A DNA stretch of 30,319 bases, from positions 1 through 30,319 of IMG/VR virus record IMGVR_UViG_3300021364_000115. One strand, written 5' to 3'. The position numbers and the translations under genes were made by a program. Origin of the DNA: a virus. How positions within the stretch are numbered: the first letter of the stretch is position 1; the number at the start of each line of letters is the position of its first letter. The notes under the pieces are model-generated. The model saw only the letters and a program-made list of their open reading frames with translations, was not told where the DNA came from and searched no databases. This document shows positions 4,947-18,059 of this stretch, piece after piece.

Positions 4947-7900
4947 TTATAAACCTGCGATTTCGCCTGTGTTTTTAATGCGTAGTGGAATGTAAATAAA
5001 TTCTACTGCTTTTACTGGCTCAATAGCAATATCTACATATAACTCGTTTCTGTCAATTCTAGCTGGTGTATTATTTGTTTCATCGCACACAACTAGGAAA
5101 TCGTACAATGCACGTAAACCAACTAATTCTACTAACAAACTTTCTACTTGTTGTTTGATTTCATCACGTGTGATTTTATCATTTGGTTCAAATAAGTATG
5201 GTTTTGCTAATGTGTTAAGTTGACTACGTAAGTATACAACAAGTCTTGCAACATTTACTCTGTCTAGAGCACTTGCGTTTCTTGCACGAGTTTTCTGTCC
5301 AAATACAACTAACCCTGCACCTGTTAGGAATGTAATTGGGTTAACGTTGTTTGAGTACAGTGTATCTCTTACACCTTCGTTTAATGCTACTGCAACAAAT
5401 TCGCCTTCATTGTTGATATAACCAGTTGATGTTGCGTTAGTTACGCCGCCACGTCTTGTACCTGCTGGTGCAAACCATGGATATGCAACTTGGTCGTTAA
5501 GTGCAATTGTACGTAGTACCATATGCGAAGCTGGAACAACAACATTGTTACCTGCATTATCACTTGTAAAGCCACTTGGATAGTAAACAGCCATATACTC
5601 ATCTCTACTTACTAATCCGTTGTCATTATCTTCAACTGCTGTATTAACATTTGTTGCCCATTCATTTAAACTAGTTGCATCTGGTGTTAATCTCATCGGT
5701 GAATCACCTACAACAAACGCTGTTAAGCCTCTATCATAGTTTAATGTAATCATTTCACCAATTAGTTCAGGGTAACCTGGAGTTGCAATCAAGTTAAAGA
5801 TACGAGATTCATCATCGCGAATATCTTGATTTTCATTTAACAATGATTGTAGTTTTTGAACAACAACTTTACGTTGTGCTTTACGTCCAAAGCTACCTGA
5901 TCCATCAGCTTCGTTAGCTGATTCAGTTACCCAACGATGAGGATAGTAACCTGACATATCTTCATCGCCAAAGCGTGTATTGTCAGCTGTTAGATCAATG
6001 TAGTTACGCTCAAAACGTTTTACATTGAATCCGCTTCTACGTAGATTCCATAGCAGCATACCTTTTGGATATAGTGCTGGATCTGGACAGTCTGGATCAA
6101 CATAATCACTTTCAATTAGATCTACAATGTCCCCTGCTGATCCACTGTTTGCTCCTGCTGTATTATAACGAGCATCTGCAAATAGTACACCGTTTTCAGT
6201 GGTTTGATCAGTTGTATCTAATTCTTGCCATTCATTAAGTGTATTATTCCAACGATAAATTTTTGGGAAGTTTTCCAAATCTGCTGTGCTTACCCAAATA
6301 TCGCCTGAAACTAAATCGCCGCCATCTGAACGATCACCGTCAGCTGGTTCAGTAGCACTTACAATAGGTCCTGCTGCATCTGGTTGTGTTGCTGAATCAC
6401 CAGTCCAATATTGAGAATCGGCATTATTAACTCCGACCCATTTAGATCCATTGTGTACTAACAAATCAATTTCGTCAATAACACTGCTATACCACAATGC
6501 TCCGTCTGCTGCTAATGAAGTTGGTGCATCATCACTTGCTGTATATGTTAATTCTTTCCAGTAAGTTGCAACATATTCATTTGCTGCTCCATCTGGTACA
6601 TCATAAAAGTTTGCTGTACCTGTGTTTGCAGTATAATCAAATGCAGTGAATCCAATGTCGGCCAATGATCCGTCGGTGTCTACAAATCTAATTTCACCGC
6701 CTAATCTATGTGAAATTGTTACTTTATTAGTGCTTGTAACGCCTGCAACAATATTTGTTAAACCTGCTGCGTTAATTGCTGTAGCCATTGCCTCTGCATC
6801 TGTACTTGCACCAGTTGCTGTAAATGTAACTGTTACAGCTGATGATAGTGTAGCACTGCCTTTAACACTTTCTTGAATTGTAAAATTATAATTTTGTGCT
6901 AAAAGATCAGCTGTTTTAACAATTGCACTTGAAATTGTTAATGCACCTGTGCCGTTTCTTTTGTAAATTGTAAAATCAGCAATTTCACTACCTGCTGTTT
7001 CTTCAGCAACGTTAGTCATTACAAATAAATCTGTAGCAATTAAGTTTGCGCCGCCGCCTGATAAATCAAGCTCGTTAATTGCTTCGTGATTTGTTTTGTA
7101 AATTGGTGCACTAACTGTTTCCCATAATTCTGTTTCGCCATTGAATACTTTTACTGACCAATTTGCTCCAACATTAGGTGATGTTGTTTTTAACCATACA
7201 CTTCCTGTTGGGCGTGGCTTGGTGTCACTTGATTTAAATTCTGGAATGCTTGTATGAGGATCAGCTTGTAGTTTAGGAGCATAATACTGACCTGCTGTAA
7301 TTCCTGCTTCTGTAAGTGCAGTACCACCAATTGTAACTTCGTCATGTGCAGAACCATCATTGTAAATGTAAAGAATGGTGTCTACAATTTGAGCAGACAA
7401 TCCAGCAGCTGAAAATGCTGTATTAAATTCACTTACAAATGCTGCGCCATTAGATCCAACTAGGTTAAGAGTGCCTGACAATCCTGTAGTTGATGTTAGT
7501 GTTACAGTATTTCCTGGTGTGAAAGTTGTAATAGTTCCGCCCACAATTGATGGCCAACTTGCTTTCCAGTCTGCACTGCCTACTTTTACCCAATCGCCTG
7601 CAGATACTGTTAATCCATTTCCTGATGACTTGTAGTACAGTGTAGGAATTGTTGTAACGGCTGTGATTGCATAATCTCCAACTGATCCTATACTTCCTAA
7701 AGGAACAAACGAACTGTCAACTTGTGTGCTATCAGTAATTACAATTGGAGTTTTGTTAGAAAATGATTGTCCTGAAAGATTAGTTGTAGCTAATGCACTT
7801 CCGTCCCATTCAAAAACGCCAAATCTTGTTATACCGGTATCTAACCAATATGTACCGTCAGCTGGATTAGCAGTGGTCGGTGTTGAACTTGCATTTAGTG

Positions 7901-8252
7901 CGCCTAGATCAACATCTGCACGTACAACATAAGCTCTATTGCTTACACCCAAATATGAGTATGCAGCCTGCAATCCATATTCGTTTTGCTCTCCGCCATG
8001 TATTGGATTATTATTATTATCTACATAAAATGTTGGATCGCCAAATGTATCTACCAGTTCACGCTGTGAAGTAAGTAGGTATGGTTTTCCAGCATTTGCT
8101 TTTGTGGTACCTGGAGCAATTCCTGTTCCTGCACCATTTTGTTTATTTTCGCCAGTTGCGACGAATATAATAGGTACTGTACCCGGTTCTGCAGGAGTGT
8201 AAAAACTCTCGTCAATTACCTGTACTTCTACACCTGGTGATGTTAATGCCAT
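4947..8252 (-). CDS. 18: Contractile tail sheath protein gp18, enlarged
   Basis: This is a sheath subunit of 1101 residues; T4 gp18 has 659. The start MALTSPGVEVQVIDESFYTP and the end KAVEFIYIPLRIKNTGEIAG are typical. The conserved core spans about 1-120 and about 690-1101, including RIFNLIATPGYPELIGEM, a WFAPAGTRRGGV stretch, VNPITFLTGAGLVVFGQKTR, VNVARLVVYLRSQL and a helical VESLLVELVGLRALYDF. The block from about 121 to 690 is inserted. It has four short W-rich modules near 127-155, 343-378, 575-606 and 633-678 (patterns such as ADGTYWLDTG...FEWDG and SGDIWVST...YRWNN). Between them are two segments with INAAGLT-like text resembling bacterial-Ig or flagellin-insertion style beta modules. 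I infer surface decoration of the tail. An AGGAGAA ribosome site and a late-promoter variant precede the gene. Confidence 0.9.
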   Translation of the reverse strand: MALTSPGVEVQVIDESFYTPAEPGTVPIIFVATGENKQNGAGTGIAPGTTKANAGKPYLLTSQRELVDTFGDPTFYVDNNNNPIHGGEQNEYGLQAAYSYLGVSNRAYVVRADVDLGALNASSTPTTANPADGTYWLDTGITRFGVFEWDGSALATTNLSGQSFSNKTPIVITDSTQVDSSFVPLGSIGSVGDYAITAVTTIPTLYYKSSGNGLTVSAGDWVKVGSADWKASWPSIVGGTITTFTPGNTVTLTSTTGLSGTLNLVGSNGAAFVSEFNTAFSAAGLSAQIVDTILYIYNDGSAHDEVTIGGTALTEAGITAGQYYAPKLQADPHTSIPEFKSSDTKPRPTGSVWLKTTSPNVGANWSVKVFNGETELWETVSAPIYKTNHEAINELDLSGGGANLIATDLFVMTNVAEETAGSEIADFTIYKRNGTGALTISSAIVKTADLLAQNYNFTIQESVKGSATLSSAVTVTFTATGASTDAEAMATAINAAGLTNIVAGVTSTNKVTISHRLGGEIRFVDTDGSLADIGFTAFDYTANTGTANFYDVPDGAANEYVATYWKELTYTASDDAPTSLAADGALWYSSVIDEIDLLVHNGSKWVGVNNADSQYWTGDSATQPDAAGPIVSATEPADGDRSDGGDLVSGDIWVSTADLENFPKIYRWNNTLNEWQELDTTDQTTENGVLFADARYNTAGANSGSAGDIVDLIESDYVDPDCPDPALYPKGMLLWNLRRSGFNVKRFERNYIDLTADNTRFGDEDMSGYYPHRWVTESANEADGSGSFGRKAQRKVVVQKLQSLLNENQDIRDDESRIFNLIATPGYPELIGEMITLNYDRGLTAFVVGDSPMRLTPDATSLNEWATNVNTAVEDNDNGLVSRDEYMAVYYPSGFTSDNAGNNVVVPASHMVLRTIALNDQVAYPWFAPAGTRRGGVTNATSTGYINNEGEFVAVALNEGVRDTLYSNNVNPITFLTGAGLVVFGQKTRARNASALDRVNVARLVVYLRSQLNTLAKPYLFEPNDKITRDEIKQQVESLLVELVGLRALYDFLVVCDETNNTPARIDRNELYVDIAIEPVKAVEFIYIPLRIKNTGEIAGL

Positions 8253-9665: not shown

Positions 9666-10820
9666 ATGCCACGTTTAAGTTTATACAGACCAGAAAAGTC
9701 AAAGGATTACGAGTTTTTAGACAAAGTTGTCTATGAACAATTTACTGTTGGCGGCACTGATTTATTAATACACAAATACCTTGGGCCTAAAAACCCATTG
9801 GATGAAGATGCAACCGCAGAACAAAAACAATATGATGCGATTAGCGAAACCAATATACAAGATTTACTTTTTTTAGAAAATAGAGATAGAAAATACGACC
9901 AAGACATTTACAGTATCAGAGGACACTACAATGTTCAAGATCAAGATTTTGATTTGAGTCAATTTGGATTGTTTTTACAAAATGACACTATTTTTATGAC
10001 AATACATATTAACAGTAGTGTAAAAACATTAGGAAGAAAGATAATGCCAGGCGATGTTTTTGAATTGCCGCACCTAATAGATGAATATGCTGCAAATGAT
10101 TTCAGTGTTGCACTGAAAAGATATTATGTAGTCGATGAAGTAACTAGAGCAGCAGAAGGGTTTAGCCAAACTTGGTATCCGCATTTATATAGAGTAAGAT
10201 GTAAACAAATAATGGATTCTCAAGAATACAAAGATATTTTGGATTTACCTGCTGGTGACGAAGCTGGAAATACTTTACGAGAAGTATTAAGCACATACGA
10301 AAAAGAAATGCAAATTAATGATGCAATAATAGCACAAGCTGAAGATTATGCTAATCAAAGCGGATATAGTACAATACAATTTTATACACTATCTGTTACA
10401 GATGTAGGCGAAATGAATATTGTTAGTGCTGACTATACAGATTTACTAGCTGATGGTACTATCACATCCGATACCGTGTTTGTTACACCAGATGGAAATG
10501 GTTACCAAGGATATCTTGTTGGAGATGGTATTCCACCAAATGGTGCATTGTTTGGTACAGGAACAGGATTTCCAGTTGATCCACAGCTTGGTGATTATTT
10601 CTTACGTATAGACCTAGCACCCAATAGATTATTTAGATACGACGGGAACAGTTGGAGAAAAGTTGAAGATGCAGTAAGAACATCGCTAACACCAACAGAT
10701 AATAGAGATACTCTAAAAGGTACATTTATTAACAACACAACTGTAAATACAATTGCTGGCGAAGATGTAGTAGAACGCCAGGCATTAAGTAAAGCTCTAC
10801 GAGCAAAGGCAGATAGTTAA
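9666..10820 (+). CDS. 14: Neck protein gp14
   Basis: This 384-residue neck protein binds gp13 and the tail terminus. Recognisable stretches are MPRLSLYRPEKSKDYEFLDK, FTVGGTDLLIHKYLGPK, NIQDLLFLENRDRKYDQDIY, GHYNVQDQDFDLSQFGLFLQ, LGRKIMPGDVFELPHL and SQTWYPHLYRVRCKQIMDSQ, all typical of cyanophage-type gp14. It is longer than T4 gp14 (256 residues) because of a C-terminal extension from about residue 250. The extension contains GDYFLRIDLAPNRLFRYDGN followed by SWRKVEDAVRT and ends in RQALSKALRAKADS. Start choice: MPRLSLYR at 9666 matches family starts. ATGs at 9642 and 9660 fall before or inside the promoter palindrome. No Shine-Dalgarno is visible. The stop overlaps the gp15 start (TAATG). 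Confidence 0.85.
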   Translation: MPRLSLYRPEKSKDYEFLDKVVYEQFTVGGTDLLIHKYLGPKNPLDEDATAEQKQYDAISETNIQDLLFLENRDRKYDQDIYSIRGHYNVQDQDFDLSQFGLFLQNDTIFMTIHINSSVKTLGRKIMPGDVFELPHLIDEYAANDFSVALKRYYVVDEVTRAAEGFSQTWYPHLYRVRCKQIMDSQEYKDILDLPAGDEAGNTLREVLSTYEKEMQINDAIIAQAEDYANQSGYSTIQFYTLSVTDVGEMNIVSADYTDLLADGTITSDTVFVTPDGNGYQGYLVGDGIPPNGALFGTGTGFPVDPQLGDYFLRIDLAPNRLFRYDGNSWRKVEDAVRTSLTPTDNRDTLKGTFINNTTVNTIAGEDVVERQALSKALRAKADS

Positions 10821-12511
10821 TGCAATTTTTTTATGATGGACAAATACGCAGATATATTACTCAAATAGTAAGAACGTTTAGCAATTTTAGTTATAAAGAC
10901 GGTGAAGGCGATTTAAAACGTGTTCCTGTAATGTATGGCGATATTACTAGGCAGGTAGGAAGTATTATAAGAGAAAATTCTGAAAACAAAGTACCTAGTG
11001 CTCCACGTATGGGTATATACATCACTAGTTTGCAAATGGATAGAGCAAGATTAAGTGATAGTAGTTATATCAGTAAAATAAATTTAAGAGAAAAAGAATT
11101 TGATCCTGAAACTAATAGTTATATTGCTGCACAAGCTAAAGGATATACAGTTGAAAGACTACATCCTACACCATATACGCTTGCTGTAAATGTAGACGTC
11201 TGGAGTACAAGTACTGATCAAAAATTACAAATACTAGAACAAATTTTTATGTTGTTTAATCCTGACCTAGAATTTCAAACAACAGACAACTATATCGATT
11301 GGACTAGTTTAACAACACTATATTTAGAAGATATTAATTTCAGTAGCAGAACTATACCTATGGGTACTAACGACGAAATAGACGTAGCAACAATAGGTTT
11401 TACAGCGCCAATTTACATTTCGCCTCCTACTAAAGTTAAGAAGTTGGGCATTATTACAGATATTATTACGAGTGTTTACAATCAAGATGCAGGCACAATC
11501 AGTTTGGAAGGATTCAATCCTCCTACAGACAGCGATCAAGGTGCTGCCAGCGGTACTACAGTTTTACCTGATGGAACATTGATTTCAGACGGTTCTATTA
11601 CAAACGTAGGTCTAGGAGGCAGACTAGATCTTCAAAATCCTGTTGTAACTAGTTACAGAAATTTTGATCTAATAATTCAAGACGAAACAGGAAAATTAGT
11701 AAAAAATAAAAAATTACGTGTTGGAGAAATATCTTGGTTAAACATTTTAGAAGCAGAACTTCCTGCTAAATTCCAACCAGGTATAAGTCAAATTAGAATA
11801 CGTAGAGTTGAATTACAAAATGAAATTGTTGGTACTTTTACTTTAAGAAATAATGATAATTTTTTAATTGATATAGACTGGGACCAAGATACTTTGCCAA
11901 GTAATACATTGTTAACAGGGCCTAGTAAAACAGATGGAACAGTAGATTATATTGTTAGTCCTATTAGTTTCAGTCCACTAGCTGTTAAAAAAGCAGGAAC
12001 TAGAGTTATTCTTTTAGATCCAATCGGATATAAAGTTTCGAGGTTATTTACAGCAGATCAAAATACAAATATTATAAACACAGATATAGATTATTTTATT
12101 TCAAGCAGTGGTTTAGCAAATAGAACAGGTGACGAAACTGTAACAAGTTTCCAGGTTTATGTCAATGGTTCTTTAGTTAATGCTACTGGTTCTAATGTAA
12201 ATGACAAATTTGTTTTAACTTTAGATGTTGCATATGATTTTGATGATACAGTTGAATATATATTAAATTTAAACGAAGACGGACCCGAAGCTTGGAAAAA
12301 TGCAGATGGCACAGATTTTGTAGCAGATGCTAACGATGTAGTAGAGTGGGATGGACTAAAATGGCATATCATTTTTGATGCAAGTACAGAAAATGATACT
12401 ACATACCTTACAAATGTAACAACAGGTCAACAATATTATTGGAATAATTATTACTGGCAAACAAGCGTAGACGGATATTATCCAAGAGGAACTTGGACTA
12501 TTACACTGTAA
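10820..12511 (+). CDS. 15: Proximal tail sheath stabilisation protein gp15, extended
   Basis: In T4, gp15 (272 residues) caps the tail and joins it to the neck. The first about 215 residues match the T4-like pattern: MQFFYDGQIRRYITQIVRTF, RVPVMYGDITRQVGSIIREN, YTVERLHPTPYTLAVNVDVW, TDQKLQILEQIFMLFNPDL, DNYIDWTSLTTLYLEDINFS and DVATIGFTAPIYISPPTKVK. The remaining about 350 residues form an extension absent from T4. It is rich in beta-type text and ends in aromatic modules (VVEWDGLKW, QYYWNNYYWQTSVDGYYPRG). It overlaps the gp14 stop by one base and is therefore read from the divergent late promoter. The name gp15 rests on order (after 14) and motif memory; another tail-completion protein is possible. 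Confidence 0.7.
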   Translation: MQFFYDGQIRRYITQIVRTFSNFSYKDGEGDLKRVPVMYGDITRQVGSIIRENSENKVPSAPRMGIYITSLQMDRARLSDSSYISKINLREKEFDPETNSYIAAQAKGYTVERLHPTPYTLAVNVDVWSTSTDQKLQILEQIFMLFNPDLEFQTTDNYIDWTSLTTLYLEDINFSSRTIPMGTNDEIDVATIGFTAPIYISPPTKVKKLGIITDIITSVYNQDAGTISLEGFNPPTDSDQGAASGTTVLPDGTLISDGSITNVGLGGRLDLQNPVVTSYRNFDLIIQDETGKLVKNKKLRVGEISWLNILEAELPAKFQPGISQIRIRRVELQNEIVGTFTLRNNDNFLIDIDWDQDTLPSNTLLTGPSKTDGTVDYIVSPISFSPLAVKKAGTRVILLDPIGYKVSRLFTADQNTNIINTDIDYFISSSGLANRTGDETVTSFQVYVNGSLVNATGSNVNDKFVLTLDVAYDFDDTVEYILNLNEDGPEAWKNADGTDFVADANDVVEWDGLKWHIIFDASTENDTTYLTNVTTGQQYYWNNYYWQTSVDGYYPRGTWTITL

Positions 12512-12524
12512 GATAATTATTTTT

Positions 12525-12959
12525 ATGAACAAAATTACATGTAGTGGTGCTCTTTTTTATGCATTGTCGACAAAACGTTTTTTATTTTTACATCGTACTC
12601 AAAGTAAAGCAAAAAATCTTTGGGGAATTGTAGGCGGCACAAACGAAGATAAAGAAACTCCTTACACAGGCTTGTTACGTGAGGTAAACGAAGAACTAGG
12701 TTTTGAACCTGACATACAAAAATCTATTCCACTAGAAACTTTTGTCAGTAATGATGAACATTTTCATTTCCATACATATCTTTGTGTTGTCAATGAAGAA
12801 TTTATTCCTATATTGAATTGCGAACACAACGGGTATGCTTGGGTAAACTTTGGAGCATGGCCTAAACCATTACACAATGGGTTACAAAATACACTACGTA
12901 GCAAGATTAATCAAAACAAATTACAAACAATTATTGAAGTCATTGATATAATTTCTTAA
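12525..12959 (+). CDS. Nudix hydrolase
   Basis: This 144-residue protein has a complete Nudix box at residues 38-60: G-x5-E-x7-REVNEELGF, exactly G, TNEDK, E, TPYTGLL, REVNEELGF. The Glu residues bind the metal that attacks nucleoside diphosphates linked to another moiety. An N-terminal strand pattern (ITCSGALFYALSTKRFLFLH) precedes the box, and FHFHTYLCVVNEEF with a Trp-containing loop follows. The substrate (dNTP pool, NAD, capped RNA or sugar nucleotide) cannot be told. It lies 13 bases after gp15 on the same strand with no separate promoter or clear ribosome site, so late expression is likely. Its end overlaps the convergent 873-residue gene by 20 bases. Confidence 0.88.
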   Translation: MNKITCSGALFYALSTKRFLFLHRTQSKAKNLWGIVGGTNEDKETPYTGLLREVNEELGFEPDIQKSIPLETFVSNDEHFHFHTYLCVVNEEFIPILNCEHNGYAWVNFGAWPKPLHNGLQNTLRSKINQNKLQTIIEVIDIIS

Positions 12960-15561
12960 ATTCTTCTTTGAGCCATTCAAAGTCGTTGATTTTTGCAAGT
13001 TCTGCTGCATTGTCTTTGTTAAGTCTGCCAAACTCTTTTCCAGCTATAGCACCTGCAATTGCTGCTTTACCAAAGGGTTTGTCTGCTCCTCTAGTACACC
13101 AAGCCTCTAATCTAAATTCAGTTTCTTCATCTTTTTGTCTAGCAATAGTACGGCTTGCTAATTTTGCACATTCTCTAAATCCACTACGCCAAGCACTAAA
13201 TGAGTCAGTGTTAAATGCGCTAGTGTTACTCATTTCTTCTATGCCTTTAAACTTGTCACTTATACTAGTGGTCATATCTGTTGTAGATTCGTCCATATTA
13301 CGAGTTAAATTAGTAGGAAGTAATTTTACACCTCCATAACCGTAAACTAATCCATTGATAGGATTTAAACTGCGCCATACATGCACTGTATCTTTACCAT
13401 CAATATCGTATGCAGGAACATAGTAATCAAAGTCAAATCCATCTATAATTTCTGCATCACCGTCTACTACCCAAAACATATCTGTTTCTACTAATTCTGC
13501 TGCACGTTTATGTGCTGCATGAATACCTTTGATGTCCATAACACGTTTTGTTCTTGGAAACTTCTCTGAAAGTAAATCAAAATTATCATCTGCGTTCGGC
13601 TCACCATTACTGATAAAAACAATATCGTAGGGTTTTGGATTGCTGCCCACTTCCGGATATTCTTTTTTAGTAACAAAAAATCTATAATCAATTTCTCTTT
13701 GACTTATGCTTAATTTTTTACTGGTTAAAGCTATTCCGTCATAAAAGTCTCCGTTTTTCCACACGTGGTTAATTTTTCGTTCGTATTGATTATGATGATC
13801 AATATAAAAATTCCAATCAAAATCTTCTAAAGGTAAAAAACTATCGTTTACCATCCAAAACATATCATAGTTGCAATCGTTCTTTGCATTTAAATAATCT
13901 TGATAATTATTCACAGTGTAAATAGGATATGGTTTAGGATCACTTGCTACAATATCCCATTCTTTCTTTTTTATTAAAAATCTATGTTCAATTTCTTTTT
14001 CACTCACTAAAACATTTTTACTAAAAAGGACTATTCCATCATAAGTATTTCCGTTTAAAAACACATGATTGATATTTCTATCATAACTGTTATGATGACT
14101 AAAATATAATTTAAAGTCAAAATCTGGTGCAATCTCTACATCGCTAGGAACTCCCCAAAACATTTCTGTTTCACAATTATAAAGTGCAGCAGTATAATCA
14201 TCATAATTGTTAATTAAAAATTTGTCGTAAGGTTTTGGATAACTTGCAATTACATCGTGTTCTTTTTTATTAACAAAAAATCTATGTTCAATTTCTTTTT
14301 CGCTTATTTCAATTTTTGATGATAATAAAGCAATACCATCATAATCCTCACCGTTAAGAAATACATGATTGGTTTTTGTATCAAATGTTTCTTGAGATAA
14401 GAAATAATTATCCCATTGAAAATTTTCACAAGGATTTACATCTTTAGGAATAAACCAAAACATATCTGTTTTACATTTTGATAATGCTTGTTGATATTCT
14501 TTATAATTTCCAATTACAAATCTTTCAAATTGTTTTGGTACACTAGCTACTGCCTCGTGTTCGATTTTTTTATTTAAATCTTTAAATTTTATTTCTTCTT
14601 CGGTAACTGGAGATTGTTTGCTGAATAAAAATACTCCATTGTATTTGTTGCTATTGAGCCATGCATGATTGGTTTTTCTGTCACTGCTGTGATGACTTAT
14701 GTAAAAATCAAATTTAAAACTTTTGTTTATTTCTATTTGATCATTATATCCCCAAAATAATTCAGTAGTTGATTTTTTCAATGCTTGTTGATAATCATAA
14801 TAGTTATTAATTTCAAATTTATCGTAAGGTTTTGGATTACTTGCCATAATCCTTATTTCTTTTTTATTTACAAAAAATCTGTGTTTAATTTCTTTTTCAG
14901 TTGCCTTGTATGCTTTAGGCATTAACACAATGCCATCTAGTTGATCTATATCTCCGTTTCCAAACACATGAGGTGTATCGTAACTCCATTCATCAGGCTT
15001 GTAGCTAAACTTAAAGGTATCTCTTACATCAGTATCATCATACACAATCCACAACATATCTGTAAAACTTTGAGATTGGGCCTGCTGTAAATTATCAACT
15101 ACTTGAACATCAAAATTTCTTTCGACTAATTTATCGTAAACTGTTTTGTCTTCTCCAATATAAAAAATATCAAATTTTTCTTTTCCAAAGTAAGGATCGT
15201 AATGACCGCATATATATTTTTCTTTTACACTTTTAAACTTGCATAAATGTGCATTTACCGGAACCAACAGGGTTTTCTCATAAGAGATTATTTCTCTACT
15301 GTCTTTCTGAACGTAAGGAAATTTATAAATTTTATTTCTCTCTTCAGGAGAAAAATACCACGGAAAACTGCTGTAGGTTTTTATATTTTTGTCTACTAAC
15401 CATACATGCGTTGTGTCAAAATTATGTTTTTTTAAAATACTAAAATCAGTAGGATCATCTACATATAGTATGGGTGCTTTTTTTAGAATATTATTTCGAA
15501 GTGTGCTAAAACTTGAAAAAGTAGATTGTGGATCTATTCCAAACTTGTCAAATACTTTCAT
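12940..15561 (-). CDS. Array of glycosyltransferase-like repeats with one DGD-containing module
   Basis: This 873-residue protein consists mostly of repeats with a period of 100 residues. Each full unit has NNYxDYxxA, then [DE]MFWxVxxD, a strand F.F..Y.SHH, NHVFLNG..YDGI.L.SK, then SEKEIEHRFFVNKKE and a terminal PKPY. Units lie near 131-246, 247-346, 347-446, 447-546, 547-646 and 647-750; a weaker one lies near 30-110 (VWLVDKN). The FW motif is at 269, 368, 468, 568 and 696 (LW at 170). Only the last unit shows a DxD-like DGD at 700-702 (MFWVVDGDAEI), as in GT-A enzymes, so the others look degenerate. Residues about 780-873 form a separate domain (AFNTDSFSAWRSGFRECAKL, LEAWCTRGADKPFGKAAI, INDFEWLKEEF). 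The start overlaps the neighbouring glycosyltransferase stop (ATGA). Confidence 0.75.
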   Translation of the reverse strand: MKVFDKFGIDPQSTFSSFSTLRNNILKKAPILYVDDPTDFSILKKHNFDTTHVWLVDKNIKTYSSFPWYFSPEERNKIYKFPYVQKDSREIISYEKTLLVPVNAHLCKFKSVKEKYICGHYDPYFGKEKFDIFYIGEDKTVYDKLVERNFDVQVVDNLQQAQSQSFTDMLWIVYDDTDVRDTFKFSYKPDEWSYDTPHVFGNGDIDQLDGIVLMPKAYKATEKEIKHRFFVNKKEIRIMASNPKPYDKFEINNYYDYQQALKKSTTELFWGYNDQIEINKSFKFDFYISHHSSDRKTNHAWLNSNKYNGVFLFSKQSPVTEEEIKFKDLNKKIEHEAVASVPKQFERFVIGNYKEYQQALSKCKTDMFWFIPKDVNPCENFQWDNYFLSQETFDTKTNHVFLNGEDYDGIALLSSKIEISEKEIEHRFFVNKKEHDVIASYPKPYDKFLINNYDDYTAALYNCETEMFWGVPSDVEIAPDFDFKLYFSHHNSYDRNINHVFLNGNTYDGIVLFSKNVLVSEKEIEHRFLIKKKEWDIVASDPKPYPIYTVNNYQDYLNAKNDCNYDMFWMVNDSFLPLEDFDWNFYIDHHNQYERKINHVWKNGDFYDGIALTSKKLSISQREIDYRFFVTKKEYPEVGSNPKPYDIVFISNGEPNADDNFDLLSEKFPRTKRVMDIKGIHAAHKRAAELVETDMFWVVDGDAEIIDGFDFDYYVPAYDIDGKDTVHVWRSLNPINGLVYGYGGVKLLPTNLTRNMDESTTDMTTSISDKFKGIEEMSNTSAFNTDSFSAWRSGFRECAKLASRTIARQKDEETEFRLEAWCTRGADKPFGKAAIAGAIAGKEFGRLNKDNAAELAKINDFEWLKEEFKKLYQ
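13312..15171 (-). repeat. Six protein-level repeats (300-base period) within the 873-residue gene
   Basis: Units start near 15171, 14823, 14523, 14223, 13923 and 13623, and the middle four are almost exactly 300 bases long. DNA identity is also visible: segments encoding RFFVNKKE and EKEIEHRF recur near 13680, 13980, 14280 and 14875. The first unit is longer (116 residues) and the last holds the DGD motif. Confidence 0.75.
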
Positions 15562-16142
15562 AGTATAATTGCTTTCGTTCCGTAATGTGCTAGTGCTATG
15601 TCTGCATCAACAAAGACATCAATGCCATGATGCATTGCTTGATTACAAAAGTATATATCTTCTCCACCAAAGTTATCTAAATTTTTATTATAATAGTGAG
15701 AAAACCACGGCTTTGGTAATTCTTTATAAACATTTGATGTTGTTAACATACAGCCCATACCAACCGCCCATACTTTGTGTAAACCCTTTTTTTCATTTAA
15801 CCTTATGTTAATGTTATCTGGATCTAAAAAAGCAACACTAACGTTTGGCTTGTAACGTGTACTATAAGTTGCAGCTACAATATCTTTATTATGAGCATAC
15901 AGTTTTGTAAATATATTTGCTGGAAAATGAATATCACTATCTAACCATAAAATATGTGTGCATTCACTGTCTAATGCTTCTTTTGCTAAATCTATTCGAC
16001 TTTGTGCAATAACACTTCCGCACACAATATGTAGATTAAAATTTATATTATCTGCAGTTAATGTGCTGGTTAAATTTGCTAAACTTTTTGCAAATCCTGT
16101 ATGCACAGTATCTCTTGCAGGAATACAAATACTTAATTTCAT
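15558..16142 (-). CDS. GT-A glycosyltransferase (GT2-like)
   Basis: This 194-residue protein starts MKLSICIPARDTVHTGFA, the usual first strand of GT2-like enzymes. GSVIAQSRIDLAKEAL follows. The catalytic DxD is in THILWLDSDIHFP (Asp68 and Asp70), which binds the sugar nucleotide through a metal. Then come VAATYSTRYKP, VWAVGMGCMLTTSNVYKELP, a GGEDIYFCNQA segment (Glu161, Asp162, candidate base) and an end LAHYGTKAI with His186. It is compact but complete for the GT-A fold, with no membrane segment, so probably cytoplasmic. It overlaps the upstream 125-residue gene (TAATG) and the downstream repeat protein (ATGA), so the three form one operon. The target could be virion protein, DNA or host surface sugar; none is shown by the sequence. 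Confidence 0.85.
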   Translation of the reverse strand: MKLSICIPARDTVHTGFAKSLANLTSTLTADNINFNLHIVCGSVIAQSRIDLAKEALDSECTHILWLDSDIHFPANIFTKLYAHNKDIVAATYSTRYKPNVSVAFLDPDNINIRLNEKKGLHKVWAVGMGCMLTTSNVYKELPKPWFSHYYNKNLDNFGGEDIYFCNQAMHHGIDVFVDADIALAHYGTKAIIL

Positions 16143-16519
16143 TACACCATGGTGCTTGGTACTGAATCTTTATTCAATTCCTGTTCAGCAGCAACAGTTA
16201 AGTCGTTCCAACTTCTTGCAGAACTTGTTGCAACTTTTACACATTCTTGAAAATCTTCTGCACTTAAACTTGCCATAGCAATCATGTTTTCTGGTTGTAC
16301 TTTACCAATTGTGAGCAAGTCTGCTCCTGCTGTAGTACCTAGTTTTTGAATCCAATGTAATCTGTCATCGTCATCAGGAATATTCATTTCATCAATTGCT
16401 TTTTTTGCAGCAATTTCTGTCTGCGCATCAAGTTGTAATGTTTCAAGTACAGCTTTTTTACGAGCTTTAGTATATTGTTGCGCTAAATCAATATTTAGCA
16501 CTTCGTAAAGTGTTTTCAT
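16142..16519 (-). CDS. Unknown protein leading the glycosyltransferase operon
   Basis: This 125-residue, mostly helical protein is not recognised. It begins MKTLYEVLNIDLAQQYTKAR, continues through a Lys/Ala/Glu-rich helix and a DDDDRLHWIQKLGTTAG segment, and ends in SAEDFQECVKVATSSARSWN and a Val/Met terminus. The FQECVKVAT stretch resembles FRECAKLAS in the C-terminal domain of the 873-residue protein of the same operon, which may hint at a shared interaction surface, but the match is nine residues long. The start has an AGGAG ribosome site 9 bases upstream. A sigma-70-like promoter (16541-16569) lies just before it, so expression is likely earlier than for the virion genes. Confidence 0.6.
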   Translation of the reverse strand: MKTLYEVLNIDLAQQYTKARKKAVLETLQLDAQTEIAAKKAIDEMNIPDDDDRLHWIQKLGTTAGADLLTIGKVQPENMIAMASLSAEDFQECVKVATSSARSWNDLTVAAEQELNKDSVPSTMV

Positions 16520-16540: not shown

Positions 16541-16569
16541 AATATATATGAATATTTGTTATTTGTCAA
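16541..16569 (-). promoter_or_regulatory. Sigma-70-like promoter for the glycosyltransferase operon
   Basis: TTGACA (16569-16564), a 17-base spacer and TATATT (16546-16541) read on the minus strand. About 22 bases then remain before the ATG at 16519, including AGGAG. The -35 box lies six bases after the stop of the 494-residue gene. It shares the flank CTTGACAAA-AACAAATA with the promoter at 18083-18112. Confidence 0.7.
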
Positions 16570-16574
16570 GTATT

Positions 16575-18059
16575 TTAAGCAGCACCGCCAACAGTAGGAA
16601 CATTGATCCTATAGACTTTATCATTGCTTGTACTTGCACCGCTTGTGCTGGAAACGCCGCCGCACATCATAGTTTGAGTGTTTGCTGTTCCGTTTTGCAC
16701 TATTTTTTTTGGTCCTGTTGTAGTATCATATATTGGATAAAATCTCGGCATATATGTAGGCGAAGGCGGGAAAGTAGGTAAATCGTCGCCTGAAATTGAT
16801 TCAATTATAGTAAAGGTAGAAAATTCAAATGACGTAGCTCTTGAATAAAGCCAACTTCTTCCAGGTTCTGGATCTGAATCAAATGTAGATCCAGAAAAAG
16901 ATTCTACAAAGGCACCTGGAGCGCCATATACTGTATTGATTTTTCTTGTCCTATTCGTAAAAAAATCCGTCCCGGCAGTTTGTAAATCTGGTGAATCTAA
17001 ATTTACAGCTGAACCAAATTCCCACTGCGCTGTAGGATCTACATAACCATTATACCAAACCGAACTTGTGCCTTGTTTCAAACCTAAACAGATAGTTGTT
17101 CCGTCAGCGCTCAAACATTGATCAAAAATTTCCGTAGCAGCAGTTACTCCGTCAAATGGAGATGTTAAAGCAGGAAGAGCACCACTAGGATCAGGAGGGC
17201 TACCTGCAATAACATACCATTGCTCATCATCCATATCAAACGATAGTGTAGCATATTTGTACAAACCAGCGCTACTACGAAAAAGAACAGTATACAAAAT
17301 TGCATTCTTATTTGGAATAGAGCAAACTTGTCCCTTTACAGTAAATTGTCTATCCCAAGTAAATCCATCTATAGGATTAGGAATTGCAAAACTAGCTTCA
17401 GGTGTAGTCGATGTATTGAATTTACGTATTCCATAGAAACTGTTTGCAGACGCTTCATTAAGTCCATAATATCTACCGTTATTAGGATTATAAAAAATAT
17501 CTCCGAAGTTATTTAAAGTTTGGCCACTTATAGGTCCTATTGATCTTACTAAACTACCACTGTGATTATAATGATAAATTATCGGACCAGTTGTAGTACT
17601 GCTAATTACTTTAAATATTAAATCGTTGCTTTGTATACCTGTAGGATGCATTATCACATTTTGGCTACTGGACAAGTTGAAAGTAAATAGTTCTGCGCCT
17701 GTAGCAACATTTACTACACCACAGGTCATAGCGCCAAAACTATAACCACTAACAAACATATACTCTCCAGATACTCCATTCCACTCGTCAAAAGCAATAT
17801 GCGGATTATCAAAGTTTTCTTCGCTAGTTGGATTTATATTAGGTAAAGTTGGACTTGTACTGACTAATGAGAAAGACCCAGGAGTACTGGATTGTCCAAA
17901 TCCACCAAAGGTACTACTCATAGTAATAGTAGTACCTTGACTGATACCAATATAAGTTCCTAATATACCTAAAACAAAACTACTAGTAAATCCTCCTCCG
18001 ACAAAAAAATCTCTAATGTCTGTCATTGTAATAGTAGAACCTGTGGGTGGTATTGCCAT
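16575..18059 (-). CDS. Putative tail-fibre tip or adhesin protein
   Basis: This 494-residue protein has an N-terminus (MAIPPTGSTITMTDIRDFFV and GISQGTTITMSSTFGG) that resembles the start of many small marine-phage tail fibre proteins, which have 'P.SG.ISMSDI' repeats. The rest is rich in Ser, Thr, Gly and aromatic residues and in beta-strand text, with several similar short segments (PIIYHYNHSGSLVRSIG, FYGIRKFNTSTTPEASFAIP, AGLYKYATLSFDMDDEQWYV). That would suit a beta-propeller-like or other beta domain. No enzyme motif is seen. It lies after the giant fibre gene and before the glycosyltransferases. A GGAATA ribosome site and a sigma-70-like promoter precede it. Adhesin function is inferred; a structural or secreted protein is also possible. 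Confidence 0.55.
   Translation of the reverse strand: MAIPPTGSTITMTDIRDFFVGGGFTSSFVLGILGTYIGISQGTTITMSSTFGGFGQSSTPGSFSLVSTSPTLPNINPTSEENFDNPHIAFDEWNGVSGEYMFVSGYSFGAMTCGVVNVATGAELFTFNLSSSQNVIMHPTGIQSNDLIFKVISSTTTGPIIYHYNHSGSLVRSIGPISGQTLNNFGDIFYNPNNGRYYGLNEASANSFYGIRKFNTSTTPEASFAIPNPIDGFTWDRQFTVKGQVCSIPNKNAILYTVLFRSSAGLYKYATLSFDMDDEQWYVIAGSPPDPSGALPALTSPFDGVTAATEIFDQCLSADGTTICLGLKQGTSSVWYNGYVDPTAQWEFGSAVNLDSPDLQTAGTDFFTNRTRKINTVYGAPGAFVESFSGSTFDSDPEPGRSWLYSRATSFEFSTFTIIESISGDDLPTFPPSPTYMPRFYPIYDTTTGPKKIVQNGTANTQTMMCGGVSSTSGASTSNDKVYRINVPTVGGAA

Follow-up and report, generated by a model that had tools for sequence, protein, structure and literature searches.

An uncultured tailed phage encodes, in a single open reading frame of its minus strand, a protein with six inert glycosyltransferase-like units (U0 to U5) followed by one apparently intact C-terminal glycosyltransferase (GT) domain of the GT-A, GT2-like type (Table 1; positions are those of the window, the whole stretch of 30,319 nucleotides that was analysed). 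Profile comparisons, with the tree and predicted structures in support, identify the units as half-domain pseudoenzymes, homologous to the front half of the GT-A fold. Architecture and homology are well supported. As to biological function we infer, giving it about an even chance, that an active transferase is combined with an acceptor-holding pseudoenzyme array and probably modifies a tail fibre or another late target.

Table 1. Positions of the array gene, its parts and its neighbours in the window
Feature	Position	Strand	Description and evidence
Array gene	12940..15561	-	873 aa, six inert units and C-terminal GT domain; ORF; relatives at 190 viral-contig loci
U0	15178..15486	-	aa 26-128; most degenerate inert unit; marginal: BLAST to U1 E = 0.002, hhalign to U5 85%
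U1	14833..15177	-	aa 129-243; inert; keeps strand 1/helix 1; triplet YDD; hhalign to GT, secondary structure
U2	14536..14832	-	aa 244-342; inert; triplet NDQ; 37-53% identity with U3-U5; GT match 3e-8
U3	14236..14535	-	aa 343-442; inert; triplet PKD; modelled together with U4, pLDDT 94
U4	13936..14235	-	aa 443-542; inert; triplet PSD; modelled together with U3, pLDDT 94
U5	13636..13935	-	aa 543-642; inert; triplet NDS; hhalign to GT 97%
C-terminal GT-A (GT2-like) domain	12943..13635	-	aa 643-873; PF00535 in relatives, fold
DGD (DxD) motif	13456..13464	-	aa 700-702
Anp1/GT62-like glycosyltransferase, separate gene	15558..16142	-	Pfam Anp1 3.9e-8, phrog_1574; overlaps array start by 4 bases
Small conserved partner gene g1409	16142..16519	-	phrog_1409 8e-10, synteny; 1-base overlap with Anp1-like GT
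Sigma70-like promoter candidate, TTGACA-17-TATATT	16541..16569	-	11/12 consensus matches; precedes three-gene unit
Tail-region gene	16575..18059	-	first part resembles small gene preceding g1409 in relatives
Giant tail fibre protein TF1, 3174 aa	18134..27658	-	PHROG tail fibre families; conserved neighbour; possible acceptor

The first-pass annotation of this DNA had read the same open reading frame as a tandem array of at least six units with a shared motif core, and this description holds, the motif [DE]M(F/L)W starting at six positions of the array protein (residues 168, 267, 366, 466, 566 and 694, with spacings of 99, 99, 100, 100 and 128 residues). It had given four units a length of exactly 100 residues, which is true of U3, U4 and U5 but not of U2, which has 99 aa with the boundaries drawn here. 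The triplets it had read at the DxD position (NDQ, PKD, PSD, NDS and the terminal DGD) are all correct, the first unit with the motif, U1, having YDD, and counting U0 brings the inert units to six, one more than it had listed.

In a seven-sequence BLAST comparison, U2 to U5 are 37-53% identical to one another over 100 aa (E values of 1e-24 to 1e-38). U1 shares 31-40% identity with these four, and U0 is marginal, its BLAST match to U5 having an E value of 0.006. The GT domain itself matches U2 (3e-8) and U4 (5e-8) over about 50 residues by BLAST, and profile-profile comparison with hhalign joins U1 to U5 to the C-terminal domain with probabilities of 92-97% (97% over 90-92 columns for U1). A non-iterated GT profile retrieves isolated real units with E values down to 1e-10, the best of 1000 shuffled units reaching 0.06, and in the reverse search stand-alone GT homologues are retrieved by the unit profile at about 1e-6 and by the U1 profile at about 1e-14. 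The identities among U2 to U5, the E values of the GT domain against U2 and U4 and the shuffled-unit control indicate that the likeness between units and GT domain is real rather than due to chance. The homology claim rests on the non-iterated test; an iterated unit HMM, with E values near 1e-20 against GT domains, had absorbed GT sequences and served for counting and column alignment only.

This homology is not a likeness common to glycosyltransferases in general, since the Anp1-like neighbour scores below 1% in an equal comparison. That the preceding gene encodes a separate glycosyltransferase had been recognised in the first reading and is confirmed by its Pfam match, but the resemblance that had been noted between its WLDSD motif and the array core is superficial, the hhalign probability being below 1% for the units as well as for the GT domain. 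An origin of the units from this neighbouring gene is rejected on the same value.

The aligned region spans helix 2, the MFW strand and the DxD position. Strand 1 and helix 1 are kept in U1 and absent from U2 to U5, and the C-terminal helices and subdomain are absent from every unit, the homology being limited to the front half of the fold; none of U0 to U5 has a complete GT-A fold, with both strand 1/helix 1 and the C-terminal subdomain. The whole-protein AlphaFold2 model, built from 34 sequences (pLDDT 87, pTM 0.60), has only GT-A-type enzymes among the PDB matches listed by Foldseek, chondroitin polymerase first, and the C-terminal domain is predicted to adopt the GT-A fold. For a two-unit model of U3 and U4 (pLDDT 94, pTM 0.84), the PDB matches listed are nearly all GT-A or sugar-nucleotidyltransferase folds. 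With a best E value of 0.04 and a TM score of about 0.3, the fold comparison of isolated units is directional only, and the homology claim is carried by the sequence profiles. The earlier suggestion that the units are GT-A half-domains is thus borne out by these profiles, with fold support from the two-unit model at weak E values.

The confinement of DxD to the last unit, seen first in this one protein, is general. The first aspartate of the triplet occurs in none (0/235) of the aligned units from non-redundant relatives, as counted by an alignment-based tally which replaces a noisy regular-expression one. Its place is taken by P (112 units), Y (47), S (25), N (25), W (17) and others. The third position is Asp in 167 of the 235 (71%), and in many units this second aspartate would be kept by something other than ordinary catalysis; other positions are conserved in nearly all aligned units (H 98%, G 99%, E 100%). 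Terminal domains have DGD, DAD or DSD in 76 of 77 cases and EAD in the remaining one. Assuming that the terminal domain is active, the protein keeps an inactive GT-like domain in tandem with an active one. Glycos_transf_2 (PF00535) matches above its cutoff in one homologue (L102); of 18 phage members, 10 have a weak match below cutoff, and Pfam gives no GT match for the window protein. Taken with its predicted fold, the DxD motif marks the C-terminal domain as a GT-A, GT2-like and apparently catalytic one. Other sub-cutoff Pfam matches, such as SSL_OB and NOV_C, were disregarded, and sequence matches in the PDB (TFAM, fumarate reductase and others) are weak chance matches.

A profile scan of viral contigs located relatives at 190 loci, 80 of which were fetched, and further queries added more; removal of redundancy at 90% identity leaves 94 GT-containing open reading frames, among them those of a paralogous family of about 305 aa. 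The number of units before the GT domain, U0 counted, is 0, 1, 2, 3, 4, 6, 7, 8, 10 or about 11, a variation between relatives that the first-pass annotation had named as decisive support. The GT domain ends every complete unit-bearing open reading frame, the units always lying N-terminal to it. In the GT tree, the stand-alone forms branch outside the group of unit-bearing proteins (support 85/94), which also contains L160, one two-GT fusion, and within which unit number shifts repeatedly, several deep joins being unsure owing to long branches. Two relatives (L124, of 1375 aa, and L134) have near-identical adjacent units, i.e. apparent recent duplications. One long-array clade (L082, L091, L094-L099; e.g. 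L095:7962-11297) has an SCP2-like C-terminal extension of about 230 aa, perhaps made of two domain copies, with PF02036 matches above the cutoff of 21.3 bits in L095 (30.5), L099 (30.6) and L082 (24.6); this extension is not in the window protein.

The paralogous family of about 305 aa has a DGD(N) motif and lies near the short-form GT in many contigs (e.g. L101:1808-2725, L105:4512-5435 and L165:4304-5194), with no match in Pfam or PHROG. At another locus (L104:6747-8708), the stand-alone form of the GT domain is fused to a domain that resembles radical SAM/SPASM and scores just short of the Pfam cutoffs.

The gene order around long arrays is TF1, g1409, the Anp1-type GT, the array, a nudix gene on the opposite strand and a gp15-like sheath stabiliser, the Anp1-type GT, g1409 or nudix gene missing from some long-array loci in the synteny comparison, in which TF1 is truncated by the locus flanks. 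The g1409 gene directly follows a small tail-region gene in most relatives, with only a ribosome-binding site between them. The window gene at 16575-18059 starts with GTYIGIS..ISMSS.FGG, and a similar segment ends the small gene found there in most relatives; the window copy therefore has an extension of roughly 400 aa. Sites like the promoter candidate occur in several relatives, on the basis of consensus match only. For a neighbouring structural gene, the closest relatives from cultured phages belong to myoviruses with large genomes, Atu_ph07 and Phosso among them, at about 40% identity. The usual setting of short forms and stand-alone GTs is a sugar/radical-SAM cassette, on viral contigs and on MAG contigs that may be viral or bacterial, where their neighbours are radical SAM proteins, a UDP-sugar dehydrogenase, a DegT aminotransferase, an AMP-binding enzyme, a carbamoyltransferase and a downstream family of about 300 aa; some short forms follow a tail-fibre-like gene (L156, L163, L165, L179, L199 and L200). 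The family of about 300 aa is encoded just after most short-form GTs (at L141:5113-6186 and 46 other loci); it matches nothing in Pfam or PHROG and by eye looks like a SAM methyltransferase.

Could the inert units be functionless, decaying leftovers of tandem duplication? Their motif positions are degenerate, and some relatives (L124 and L134) have near-identical units from recent duplication. Yet most dN/dS values (Nei-Gojobori, several pairs having a dS close to saturation) are 0.02-0.3 in the units and 0.01-0.07 in the GT domain, the most constrained part, so that the inert copies are maintained under purifying selection. As the near-invariance of the H, G and E positions and the retention of the six-unit layout down to about 55% identity also speak against decay, we regard it as very improbable. 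Somewhat less improbable, though still unlikely, is a virion or decoy role, the array being a structural or lectin-like part of the particle that binds host glycans, with a vestigial GT. The gene is located among structural genes, and phage fibres often contain modular repeats whose number varies. Such a role fits poorly with the DxD kept in nearly all terminal domains, with the strong constraint on the GT domain, with the existence of stand-alone GT relatives that have no units, and with structure searches that gave no fibre-type fold signal.

The units most likely serve the GT, given the purifying selection on them and their constant position before it. In the explanation we favour, the C-terminal domain would be the one catalytic domain; the units should not bind NDP-sugar in the usual way, because the first DxD aspartate and the C-terminal subdomain are missing from them, and strand 1 and helix 1 from U2 to U5 as well. 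By analogy with LH3 and B3GLCT, the array could serve as an arm, holding or orienting a long or repetitive acceptor so that the catalytic domain can act on it. A scaffold that holds or measures glycans, or a decoy, had been suggested in the first-pass annotation, and these roles stay conjectural. The least certain step is the target, most likely a tail fibre or another late phage or surface target, the tail fibre being proposed because the gene adjoins tail-fibre genes, together with two small partner genes. Against this explanation as a whole count the missing Pfam GT match of the window protein and the weak matches of isolated units to GT-A folds in the PDB, and against the tail fibre counts the location of most short forms in sugar/radical-SAM cassettes rather than beside such a gene. 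Neither internal repeats nor collagen-like runs were seen in TF1; a collagen-like or internally repetitive TF1 as acceptor was rejected for this reason, and a repeated binding array is thus not explained by TF1.

Host-surface glycans are the main alternative acceptor. The protein would then modify host LPS, O-antigen or some other glycan linked to a lipid, using the array to grip the chain; shutting out competing phages is one purpose that this could serve. Phage GTs encoded in such a region are commonly interpreted as enzymes that modify the O-chain (PMC7029224; PMC7824862), the SCP2-like, lipid-binding fusion suggests a lipid-linked acceptor in one clade, and both the sugar-modifying neighbours of the short forms and the promoter candidate before the three-gene unit are in keeping with it. 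However, the genes of most long-array relatives directly follow tail-region genes with only a ribosome-binding site between, which points to expression with the structural genes, and no polymerase, flippase or acyltransferase was seen adjoining long arrays. Modification of the host surface is accordingly possible but on balance doubtful, and gene order would point to the tail fibre instead. A still more tentative idea is that of a molecular ruler, in which each inert half-domain would bind a single repeat of an acceptor, be it glycan or fibre, and unit number would set how far or at what spacing the one live domain modifies it; if this were true, the phages would tune modification by duplicating or deleting units.

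Single inactive GT domains beside active ones are known from animal enzymes and giant viruses, where their role is unsettled. Chondroitin polymerase K4CP, the best structural match among those listed from the PDB, has two GT-A domains per chain, both known as active transferases, and differs from the array protein in having no pseudo-domains. PF00535 proteins share the fold and the DxD of the terminal domain, which in the array protein is preceded by a variable array of inert half-domains. The collagen GT LH3 (PLOD3) and mimivirus R699, also among the structural matches listed, have tandem GT-A domains of which one is inactive (for LH3, PMC6082870), but this is one full-size accessory domain rather than a half-domain array, and no sequence relation to the array was found. 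For the LH3 accessory domain an acceptor-holding role has been put forward, as a proposal only (PMC6082870), and so has an acceptor role for the N-terminal GT-like domain of B3GLCT (PMC8233153). In B3GLCT and EXTL3, too, an active domain is accompanied by an inactive GT-like one, for which acceptor or structural roles have been proposed (PMC8233153; PMC9178029), but these are single full domains of animal enzymes, and the inactive domain of EXTL3 is GT-B (GT47). A live GT paired with a single dead one thus has precedents; a dead half-domain array of variable length is, as far as our searches show, new.

Apart from the weak PF00535 matches, Pfam, PHROGs and NCBIfam have no annotated family covering the array, and a search of the open-access literature turned up no description of such an array. 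Searches of cultured phages (INPHARED, tblastn with five family members) gave no real match, in a collection that may omit near relatives. Two BFVD proteins from uncultured Caudovirales phages, A0A6J5LK21 and A0A6J5L5L5, match over nearly the whole length (E values of 5e-37 and 7e-34), so that the family is already in public data, unannotated; both are uncharacterised and, at 804 and 1076 aa, perhaps have other unit numbers. Since relatives carry none to about eleven copies, it seems that these phages assemble and retain a modular dead-enzyme array before a live enzyme. Such a natural graded series of inert copies before one conserved, apparently active domain makes the service of a pseudo-GT domain to its partner directly testable, and yields a definite prediction about a family of phage genes annotated in no database searched.

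Elsewhere in the window, the tail sheath (4947-8252) and the gp15-like sheath stabiliser (10820-12511) have 1101 and 563 aa, respectively. Compared with the PHROG families that they match next best after the closest one, both are much longer, and so seem to carry large insertions.
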